Position numbers and translations under genes: made by a program. The notes below the pieces were generated by a model. The model saw only the letters and a list, made by a program, of their open reading frames with translations, was not told the origin of the DNA and ran no database searches. From Petrosia ficiformis (taxonomy: Eukaryota; Porifera; Demospongiae; Haplosclerida; Petrosiidae), in the NCBI GenBank assembly GCA_947044365.1, contig OX345653.1:4614001-4678000 (forward strand): 64,000 nt of DNA, read 5' to 3'. This document shows, in pieces, positions 8,140 through 52,380 of this stretch. Every line of letters begins with the position of its first letter. Positions within the stretch are counted from its first letter, which is position 1.

Positions 8140-13262
<5,123 letters not shown>

Positions 13263-13394
13263 ATCTTTCTTGCTGATAAACTCTCCAGAAAAAAAAAGAA
13301 TTTTGGAAGATTACTGAACAAGATTACTAGTAACTAATGAATATCATTAAAAAGGGTGTGTCAATATTTATCTTGGGTATATACCGGTAATAAT

Positions 13395-13462
13395 AGATAA
13401 TCAATATACATCAGACACTGTTGTTCATAATTGAGTTACAACACTATCATCATACATTATCT
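13395..13462 (-). promoter_or_regulatory. SECIS element in the 3' UTR of the selenoprotein L-like gene
   Basis: The element starts 18 nt after the stop codon. Read on the minus strand: lower helix AGATAAT (13462-13456) with ATTATCT (13401-13395), 7 of 7 pairs; an internal loop; quartet strands TGAT (13452-13449, in the context ATGAT) and TGAT (13413-13410), giving the tandem G.A/A.G core; upper helix of 11 positions, 13448-13438 with 13424-13414, ten paired (one G-T wobble) and one G-G mismatch; apical loop of 13 nt (13437-13425) beginning with the unpaired AA. Core, helix length and AA position all fit a eukaryotic SECIS, which recruits SBP2 and the Sec elongation factor to recode UGA. Confidence 0.85.
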
Positions 13463-13479
13463 ACAATTATAATGAAATA

Positions 13480-14721
13480 TTAATTAACATTCTTTGTTCT
13501 CAATACGTCTAATAGTTCACTAACAGACGGTCTTTCATTTTCTTGAGTTTCATAAATATAAATAAGTTTACCATTATTATCAAATATATAATCTCCACCC
13601 ATTAAGAATATATCATCACCAGGATATGCAGGAGGTATATCAACACCCAAGAGACGCATTTGAGCATATGAGCTTATCATGTGTGTACCCATTAGTGTAC
13701 ACCTCCTACCTAAACCTAGTTGATGATACAGGACTTGATCCTGATCCAAGTAGACTGGGAATGAGACTGTATTACTAATTAATGAAAGATAATAATAATG
13801 ATATTAGCTACTAATGTATGTAATGGTGTGTTTGTATACCTTTTAATCCATATTTGTGCACCCTCATAATTACCCGCTGCTATAGCAATCACCTGACAAC
13901 CAAGAGCCTTAAAATCACCAAACCGAGTTGCTATAGCAACCAGATGATCTAATCATCCTAGTCATCCATAATGACGAATTAGAACAAGAAGTGCGTATTG
14001 ACTGGTCTATAATGTATGTGTCGTAATTGAATTATAATGTATTAATGAGATAACTTACTTTCAATAAAGAGTATAATTCTACAGTGTCTCCATTATTACC
14101 ATTGATTAATTTAATATCAGGGACTATCCCATTCAGTTTAGTTACATTAGATATTAGTGGATTTCCCAGCATCAGTTTATTATTTATCTTGAAAAATAAA
14201 ATAAACAATAAAAAATGTAATATTTGATATTATATCTCACCTCATCCACAAACAGTGCATGCATTTGTTCAGCAGTTACCAGCAGATCATAAGCTGTTTG
14301 AAGTTGATGATCACTGTTATATTTCTGTATTTTATCAGTTAATTGCTGACGTGTCTCAACACCACACACTCTGAATGATAGAATATATAAATAGACTGAT
14401 CGATATAGATAGATAGATAGACCACAAGAGCTAACTTGAAACAATCAGAATATTGTGTAAACAAGAAAATGCGTCTCAAACCATCTTTATCAGTTGCAAA
14501 ATCTCCAGTACTTTCATAATGTATTTGCTTTTCTTTGATATTTGCAACAGTTTCCTCTACAACTATATATAATTATTATGTGTATATTTCACATACAACA
14601 GTACATAGTTATTATTGTGTTCACATGTCATACAATATTATACAATTATATGTAAGATATATAACTTACTTTGTGCTAGTTTAGTTATGGAAGTTGTAAG
14701 TGAATCTGTTTGACTGGCCAT
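13480..14721 (-). CDS. SELENOL: Selenoprotein L-like thioredoxin-fold protein with a UxxU (two selenocysteine) motif
   Basis: Six exons: 14670-14721, 14436-14562, 14241-14370, 14059-14187, 13840-14006 and 13480-13774. All junctions are GT-AG and keep phase. The total is 900 nt, 299 residues. Exon 5 reads LLVLIRHYG, TGA (13962-13964), LG, TGA (13953-13955), then LDHLVAIATRFGDFKALG. The same frame is open on both sides and matches the PRX-like2/SelU/SelL fold, where CxxC or UxxC normally sits after RHFG. The two TGA codons fall exactly at the redox positions (residues 161 and 164). Downstream are FPVYLDQDQVLYHQLGLGR, then a loop and FDNNGKLIYIYET. A SECIS follows in the 3' UTR. SelL is known from aquatic animals and forms a diselenide. 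Its physiological substrate is unknown to me. FTCD ends 56 bp upstream on the same strand. Alternative readings, pseudogene or truncated protein, are unlikely given the intact frame and the SECIS. Confidence 0.88.
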
Positions 14722-14777: not shown

Positions 14778-16220
14778 TTACATTATTAATCTTTTATTAA
14801 TTGTATCAAGTACAGATTTGCTTTCTGCACGAGTAGAGTCTAAAATAATTCCAACTTCTTGTTTTGTTTCCTCAACAAATACTGTATCATTTATGCTCTT
14901 CAAATTAATGATGACATTACAATACCCACCAAACACACCGGTCTCTAGACTACTAGCAGAAACCTGTGTGCATTAATTAGAAATATAAGATAAAGATATA
15001 CACGCATACACCTAGCTATAATCATCATCACCTGTAAATCAGACATAGTCTGGATATTCCCATGTTCTGCTAATGAATGAAGGTGTGGCCAGCATTTGTG
15101 AGCCGTTCTCATCAGGTTTAAAGGGACGTTCACAGCTTCTTTAAGTCCATCCTGCATAGCAACATGACGTCTATAGAAAAAGAAACAAGTAGTTGAATGA
15201 ATGAATGAATGTATAAAAATATTTATACTTTTGTTTTTCTTCTTCAGTAGACTGACTCATTTTCAATGCTTCCTATAATAAATAAACAATGTATAATAGT
15301 ATTGTGAATACTATTATAGACATACATGAATGACTACACTACACTTGAAAACAAAATAATAATCAGCTATACAATTACTCAATTGTAAAATATTATACAG
15401 CATTGTTGTGTAATAATACACACACAAGACAAACCATGTATTTATTAAATGCTTGAGCATCAGAATCAATCATAACAATTAACTCTTGTGTGATAGTATA
15501 TAAAGGAGTGATTGCTTGACGTATCACATGATCTAGAGACTCATATTGTCGTTTACCATAAGTCATAAACCCAACCTGAAAAGAAATGGTAACGAAGAGA
15601 GACAGAGAAAATGATAATCCTTACCATACTTCCTAACGCTGACCCAATACTAGCAATACATGCACTAGCAGATCCGCCACCTGGAGTAGATGTACGTGCT
15701 CCGATAGATTCTATAAAGTTTCTAACACTACTACTCAACAGAGGACCATCAGTATTAGCACCAATACTATACCTGGAGAACAATATATGGATAGACAAAC
15801 AAATAGACAGGTATAACATACTCAATAATCTTCTCTTGTGGTTTGAAATGAGAGATAGAATTGAGTCCTAATCTTTCAACTGCTAACATTATCTTTTGAT
15901 TCTCTCGAAGAATGAACAATTTTTCTTTTTCAATGTAGTAATCAGCAACCATTAATAAAGACTAAACATATTTAAGTAGTTTATAAATATAACAATAATA
16001 ATTGTACTTACCTTCAATGGAACTAATCCAACTATCTCTGAACCCACTACAGGTAAATTCAATTTAGTTGCATTCTCTACACATTCTTCATAAGCTGTAT
16101 GAATGGGCGTGGTTTCAAAATCTGTTAGATTCATAGACACTTGAGATAAATCCTTTTCTTCAAGGTACCAACCAATAGCCTTCACACATTTAAGACTACC
16201 AGGCTAATATAGAATAAACA

Positions 16221-16251
<31 letters not shown>

Positions 16252-16447
16252 TACATGCATGCATGCATGCATGCATGCATCTATGTATGTATGTATGTAT
16301 GTATGCATCTATGTATGTATGTATGTATGTATGCATGTATGTCTGTATGTATGTTTATATGTATATATGTTTGTATGTATATATGTATACATGTATGAAT
16401 GTATGTATGTATGTATGCATGTATGTATGTATGTATGTATACATGTA

Positions 16448-16480
<33 letters not shown>

Positions 16481-16553
16481 ACATGTATGTATGTATGTAT
16501 GTATGTATGTATGTATGTATGTATGTATGTATGTATGTATGTATGTATACATG

Positions 16554-16587
<34 letters not shown>

Positions 16588-17438
16588 TGTATGCATCTAT
16601 GTATGTATGTATGCATCTATGTATGTATGTATGCATCTATGTATGTATGACTGTAAGTATGTATTACATGTGTAGGTATGTATGTGCTTATTATATACTA
16701 TTACATACCTTATCAGGTCCTCTTCCATATTCTCTAATATCAAGAGCTATACGATGAGCTTGTTGTTTTGTACTGAGAAGATTTACATTATATGCTATAA
16801 GAAATTTTCGTGCACCTGTGACTGTAGCTCCCCATGAAGAAATAAACTCGGCTGGACCAAAATCAGGATTCCATTTGACATCTGTCAACTAAAGGAATCA
16901 TTAATGAATGAATGGATTTATAATATCTTGTACCTTATCTCTGAGTCCTTCATATTCTCCTGATCTGATTTGTGGTAGAGTTTTACGATAATCTTTAGTC
17001 GCTGAATATTCATAAAGATATACAGGAACATTCAGACTATCAGCAAGCTGACATCCAAACTTATGAGAACACTCAATACAATCCTCCATTGTAACTCCAC
17101 TGACAGGAACAAATGGACACACGTCTAAGGCACCCATACGAGGGTGATCCCCTAAAAACACTTATAATATGATATATCACGTGACTATTTGTGTATATAC
17201 CTCTGTGTTTAGTCATATCAATAAGTTTAAAAGCCACTTTTGCAGCATTTAGAGCTCCTTCAACAACTGATGAAGGACTTCCCACAAATGTATAGACAGT
17301 TCTGTTAGTAGATATTCCAGAATCTACATCAAGTAAAGTACATTCATTAGTATCTTTTATAGCATCTGATATTGCATCAATAACATCAGATCTTTTTCCT
17401 TCAGAGAAATTTGGTACACACTCTACAATAGCAGACAT
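14778..17438 (-). CDS. FTCD: Formimidoyltransferase-cyclodeaminase
   Basis: Start ATG 17438, [20 protein letters not shown], matches the N-terminus of the family exactly. Later blocks: [17 protein letters not shown] (about 17110), with the catalytic-region His; [20 protein letters not shown] (about 16840); then the cyclodeaminase domain with [19 protein letters not shown] (about 15680), the glycine-rich folate site; [12 protein letters not shown] (about 15110); and [16 protein letters not shown] (about 14920). Stop TAA is at 14778-14780. Both domains are present, so it is the bifunctional enzyme. It moves the formimino group from formiminoglutamate to tetrahydrofolate and then releases ammonia to give methenyl-THF, linking histidine breakdown to the one-carbon pool. 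A 445-bp TATG repeat sits in one intron. The start lies 74 bp from the divergent USP14 start. Confidence 0.95.
16220..16665. repeat. TATG microsatellite in FTCD
   Basis: About 110 tatg units with scattered gcatgcat, tatacatg and gcatctatg variants. They give spurious open frames on both strands. Confidence 0.95.
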
Positions 17439-51996: not shown

Positions 51997-52069
51997 GGTT
52001 CGGTGGTGTAGTGGTTATCACGTCTGCTTTACACGCAGAAGGTCTCGGGTTCGAACCCCGATCGAACCT
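51997..52069 (+). tRNA. tRNA-Val(UAC)
   Basis: Seventy-three nt, no intron. Acceptor arm GGTTCGG (51997-52003) pairs with TCGAACC (52062-52068), with one G-T pair. Anticodon stem TCTGC/GCAGA encloses TTTACAC with anticodon TAC at 52030-52032. T arm TCGGG/CCCGA encloses TTCGAAC. The B box GGTTCGAACC is intact, and T-rich termination runs (TTTT, then TTTTTTT) follow at 52072. It lies between ROCK and IFT52. Confidence 0.97.
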
Positions 52070-52380
52070 CCTTTTGTTTTTTTGCGAGTGATTGTGTTTA
52101 CTATTAATTTTAGTATAATTATATATATATATAATTATATATTATTATATATAATTATAAATAAACGATGATATTTATTTTATTTTTTAAATTTATTTAT
52201 TAATCCTCGCACACATTGGGTTACTGTGATTGTTTTCATTGTTCAAAAGGTAGTACGACTAGAACCACAACAAATAATCTCCTTTTTTCCCCTTTGTGCT
52301 CTTATAACCTAGTAAATACATTATTTTTTGTTATTGTTATTAAAAAAGAAAACATATAAGCAAATAAGTGTCTTTTGATT
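52070..52380. other. Spacer after the tRNA
   Basis: Holds the Pol III terminator, an AT-rich palindromic stretch (tataattatatattattata, about 52118-52160) and the IFT52 3' UTR. No gene is visible. Confidence 0.6.

Follow-up and report, generated by a model that had tools for sequence, protein, structure and literature searches.

A SelL-type gene with two predicted selenocysteines, and two tandem relatives, in a sponge genome

Background and comparison with described selenoproteins

According to the excerpts consulted of the papers cited here, selenoprotein L (SelL) is a peroxiredoxin (Prx)-like protein with two selenocysteine (Sec, U) residues two residues apart and one SECIS element (PMC3316567, PMC2398784), with which both Sec residues are inserted (PMC3316567); it is described as having a diselenide and as restricted to aquatic organisms (PMC2397514). 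The excerpt of PMC3473315 records SelL in five of six invertebrates and names Aq.SelL of Amphimedon, the SECIS of which has the form GUGA_AA. Genes with two SECIS elements include SelP, Ciona SelW1, and human Sep15, as given in part of PMC2874816; SelP is called unique in having two SECIS elements in the excerpt of PMC3316567, and variants of human SelP and SelS appear in a title from the same two-SECIS context (PMC5133445). Among the literature matches listed, no title reported a sponge SelL besides PMC3473315 and none reported a SelL with two SECIS elements, which is not proof of absence.

The gene described here resembles the SelL of fish and invertebrates, as far as the excerpts describe it, in being Prx-like, in having two predicted Sec residues two residues apart and in having one SECIS-like element; its own motif is U-L-G-U. 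Its SECIS-like element reads AUGA_AA, compared with GUGA_AA in Amphimedon SelL, and three SelL-like genes were found in this genome, compared with one per species in the list excerpted from PMC3473315. Like the Aq.AphC.like proteins, which are thioredoxin-like Sec proteins of sponges, the predicted product is thioredoxin-like, but those have 2 or 5 coding exons (PMC3473315) against six here. The gene is well supported as a new SelL-type gene, of a kind (two Sec, one SECIS) that has already been published, as has a sponge member. It adds a UxxU SelL-type selenoprotein gene and two relatives to what is known from a sponge genome, and the three genes allow one to ask how one SECIS serves two UGA codons and how SECIS duplication and loss accompany the change from Sec to Cys.

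Gene structure and family assignment

The window, that is, the whole 64,000-nt stretch analysed, corresponds to C18:4614001-4678000 in a 191-Mb assembly of 29 contigs. The gene lies on its minus strand in six exons (Table 1), separated by introns 1-5 of 107, 65, 53, 52, and 65 nt, all GT...AG. The spliced sequence of 900 nt comprises 299 codons and a TAA, in keeping with the exactly 300 codons and consistent phases given in the preliminary description, the exon coordinates of which were correct. The spliced frame also bore out its statement that exon 5 is open but for two TGA codons spelling U-L-G-U: codons 161 and 164 are the only in-frame stops ahead of the TAA. The 135 codons past the second TGA contain no stop, their splice sites are intact, and a domain match falls within them.

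Table 1. Window coordinates of the SelL-type gene and its SECIS-like hairpin
Feature	Position	Strand	Remarks
Exon 1	14670..14721	-	Start ATG 14721-14719; following intron absent from P0001
Exon 2	14436..14562	-	Spliced frame; adjoining introns absent from P0001
Exon 3	14241..14370	-	130 nt; equal size in both C1 paralogues
Exon 4	14059..14187	-	129 nt (C1 paralogues: 132 nt each)
Exon 5	13840..14006	-	167 nt, equal in both C1 paralogues; holds both TGA codons
TGA codon 161, predicted Sec 1	13962..13964	-	TGA in both C1 paralogues too
TGA codon 164, predicted Sec 2	13953..13955	-	Paralogue C: TGA; paralogue B: Cys codon
Exon 6, coding part	13480..13774	-	295 nt; 292 nt in both C1 paralogues; TAA at end
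SECIS-like hairpin, 3' UTR	13395..13462	-	5' TGA from 13452; 3' TGAT ending at 13410

Pfam searches, run with a copy of the protein carrying one extra residue, revealed the Prx-like domains AhpC-TSA_2 (PF13911, E 7.1e-13, residues 172-278) and AhpC-TSA (PF00578, E 3.6e-11), and the two TGA codons place a UxxU at the redox position, as in SelL, rather than the UxxC or CxxC of SelU/PRXL2 proteins. The best NCBIfam match was NF040769 (SelL-related redox protein) with 88.9 bits, and the same model was the sole NCBIfam match of the two paralogues described below (copy C, 68.9 bits; copy B, 76.1 bits). All three genes fall below the curated cut-off of 120 bits; at 88.9 bits, the window gene is thus related to NF040769 but lies outside the subfamily itself. 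This model is used for bacteria and archaea, and the window gene, while sharing it as best family match, differs by its N-terminal extension and its introns. A single-sequence search of the PDB with the window protein gave no match at 1e-3, and a profile search gave weak matches to ResA only (best E 0.0059).

Protein relatives and the TGA codons

An alignment search of the protein collection yielded three relatives (P0001, P0002, and P0003). A search with the full-length window protein found no relative among 1467 candidates, and one with residues 1-160 found P0001 as its sole protein. P0001 comprises 160 aa, with 149/160 identical to residues 1-160 of the window protein; introns 1-4 are absent from it, and it ends inside exon 5 directly ahead of the first TGA, its last residue lying exactly before codon 161. 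It was presumably derived from an mRNA of a close relative, and the stop after its residue 160 would most simply be the same TGA as codon 161 of the window gene. The preliminary description had conceded that its reading would suffer if introns excised the TGAs or if these were sequencing errors; because P0001 is intron-free and stops before codon 161, it speaks against introns removing the TGAs and also against an error in the assembly. Moreover, ordinary gene callers seem to cut such genes, given that P0001 ends exactly at the first TGA.

P0002 was considered as a further mRNA witness and rejected, being a fragment of paralogue C whose sequence continues into intron letters. P0003 is a bacterial-type relative with Cys in place of Sec (C-L-L-C) that scores 166.2 bits against NF040769, and it was the only protein in these searches to cover the part past the TGAs. 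The protein searches returned no named eukaryotic SelL sequence among their matches, and none of 66 pattern matches in the contigs of named genomes was a relative.

Tandem paralogues on contig C1

A protein search of the genome uncovered a tandem pair of SelL-like genes with large introns (copies B and C) at C1:3961000-3990700. Both were modelled from exon 3 onward; a search of 39.6 kb for exons 1 and 2 of the pair turned up neither. The modelled exons (130, 132, 167, and 292 nt) agree or nearly agree in size with exons 3-6 of the window gene, and the junctions interrupt the protein at corresponding positions; the C1 paralogues and the window protein are 32% identical. In the columns of the two window TGAs, copy C reads U-Q-P-U (TGA, TGA) and copy B reads U-Q-P-C (TGA, Cys codon). 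The dN/dS of copy B versus copy C was 0.49 over 239 codons, so that the two are under moderate constraint only.

SECIS-like elements

The preliminary description had drawn the 3' UTR of the window gene as a SECIS element with a TGAT/TGAT quartet, an upper helix of 11 positions with one mismatch, an apical loop starting AA, and a lower helix, and all of these were seen again in a structure scan and in the predicted fold. The upper helix has 10 pairs in its 11 positions (9 Watson-Crick, 1 G-U); the stem starts 17 nt past the stop codon, and ~440 nt of spliced sequence separate the core from the first UGA upstream. In scan 1, the hairpin scored 16 and was the sole match of at least 14 in the window on both strands, compared with one match at 16 and five of at least 14 in 1.536 Mb of first-order random sequence. 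In scan 2, it again scored 16 and was the sole window match of at least 15 on both strands, compared with one match of at least 16 and three of at least 15 in 2.56 Mb of such sequence. The chance of such a score in the 217 nt from the stop codon to the next ATG-started frame is ~1e-4, and both scans were devised after the hairpin had been seen and lean towards it.

With a 100-base query, Rfam listed SECIS_1 at the hairpin with 17.2 bits (E 0.36 over 4227 families, or ~1e-4 for SECIS_1 alone when divided by the family number); this falls short of the gathering score of 35, and snoRNA models of about equal match are placed ahead of it. SECIS_1 was not listed with an 801-base query (E up to 10) nor in the whole window at the gathering threshold. 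The folding z-scores of the hairpin (-1.12 and -1.81) were unremarkable. As a single 3' UTR SECIS, as expected of SelL, the window gene offers one scan match, with weak Rfam support.

The tandem SECIS copies of the C1 pair are the least expected result of the present study. Downstream of copy C, two SECIS-like elements lie 139 nt apart, and copy B has the same layout with a distance of 118 nt. Rfam SECIS_1 matched the first element of copy C with 27.9 bits (E 0.0015) and its second with 18.5 bits; in copy B, it matched the second element with 18.5 bits, and the first, in which nine bases of the 5' arm are missing, was not listed up to E 10. In a shuffle test of the second elements, 121 of 200 shuffles folded as well as that of copy C and 4 of 200 as well as that of copy B. 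Scan 1 reported none of the C1 elements at its threshold, and scan 2, at scores of at least 13, found the first element of copy C alone. The shared two-element layout suggests that the tandem SECIS is older than the duplication into copies B and C. Copy B has lost its first SECIS, and the second SECIS of copy C may have weakened, although the equal Rfam scores of both second elements argue against decay in copy C. Tentatively, then, and with rather less than even confidence, we propose a SelL family of three genes (U-L-G-U in the window, U-Q-P-U and U-Q-P-C on C1), in which the pair would stem from an ancestor with two SECIS elements and then have undergone complementary decay, the two-Sec copy using the first SECIS and the one-Sec copy, having lost the first, using the second. 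If true, SelL would here be caught in the course of a Sec-to-Cys loss tied to SECIS turnover.

Selenocysteine machinery and a possible further Sec gene

The preliminary description had asked whether the genome carries the Sec machinery, and a tRNA-Sec gene was found, scoring 76.8 bits with RF01852 (over the cut-off) and read by ARAGORN as tRNA-SeC(tca). A genome search with selB gave seven matches, none over the cut-off; those on C14 and C6 were considered as eEFSec and rejected, as by eye they are EF-Tu-type and EF-1alpha-type exons.

In addition, a reading frame at C18:760638-762610 contains FG-U-Q-L-C and an AhpC-TSA_2 domain, which we take, from its motif, to be SelU3-like. A SECIS-like hairpin near L026:5058-5110 accompanies it; this was noticed first by eye, then scored 17 in scan 2, and was absent from the Rfam matches up to E 10. 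Like the SelU3/prostamide synthase-like proteins, the window protein has AhpC-TSA_2 and a predicted Sec at the first active-site position, and it differs from their UxxC in its motif.

Proposed reading and alternatives

Very probably, the window gene is a functional SelL-type selenoprotein gene with both UGAs recoded through one SECIS. The UxxU, Prx-like, SelL-type identity given in the preliminary description is supported by the Sec/Sec or Sec/Cys columns of the paralogues, the NCBIfam match, the stop of P0001, the place of the hairpin, and the tRNA-Sec gene, and also by the presence, elsewhere in this genome, of the SelU3-like UxxC frame and the SECIS-like hairpin that accompanies it. Counted against it are the weak Rfam score, the NF040769 score below the cut-off, the lack of selB matches over the cut-off, and the lack of proteins covering the part past the TGAs other than the bacterial-type one. 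Given the frame, junctions, TGA codons, family similarity, hairpin, and tRNA-Sec gene observed, the spliced mRNA would have two UGAs three codons apart, and the single SECIS would recruit the Sec machinery and recode both. The predicted product would be a 299-aa Prx-like protein with an N-terminal extension and a thioredoxin-fold-type domain, in which U-L-G-U would replace the CxxC redox motif, and it might act as a thiol or peroxide oxidoreductase, passing back and forth between its diselenol and diselenide states.

That the gene is instead decaying, with the TGAs as real stops and a truncated 160-aa protein or none at all being made, is highly improbable. It is true that the searches found just one close relative, the 160-aa piece P0001, but truncation at that TGA is what an ordinary gene caller would make of a Sec protein anyway. 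Decay also fits poorly with the open, correctly spliced, domain-matching sequence past the second TGA, with both TGA columns being common to the paralogues as TGA or Cys, and with a hairpin at the expected place; the dN/dS between copies B and C also speaks against it, with moderate constraint only. Hardly likelier in our judgement, and still very improbable, is a SelU/PRXL2-type protein in place of SelL. The best Pfam match, AhpC-TSA_2, takes in PRXL2 proteins as well, but NF040769 is the best NCBIfam match of the window gene and matches three of three family members, the motif is UxxU and not UxxC, and a distinct SelU3-like UxxC frame lies on the same contig. Unlikely, though to be taken more seriously, is that efficient decoding is confined to a single TGA of the pair and that the full protein is rare, its amount being set by selenium supply. 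This overlaps with the SelL-type reading, as the gene would still be of SelL type, and it is favoured by the single SECIS-like hairpin for two UGAs and by the Sec of paralogue B at the first position only; paralogue C nevertheless retains the second TGA, and vertebrate SelL inserts both Sec residues with one SECIS, as stated in the excerpt of PMC3316567.

Neighbouring features

Upstream on the same minus strand, window positions 14778-17161 hold exons that match FTCD_N and FTCD_C and belong to a formiminotransferase-cyclodeaminase gene, the stop of which, at 14778, lies 56 nt before the SelL-like ATG. Downstream, ~130 nt past the SECIS-like hairpin, a further minus-strand reading frame (13125-13310) has its ATG at 13262. 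Long simple repeats were observed at 16210-16660 (CATA-type, between the FTCD exons) and at 12340-12500 (CA-type), and a tRNA-Val (TAC) gene lies at 51997-52071 on the plus strand.
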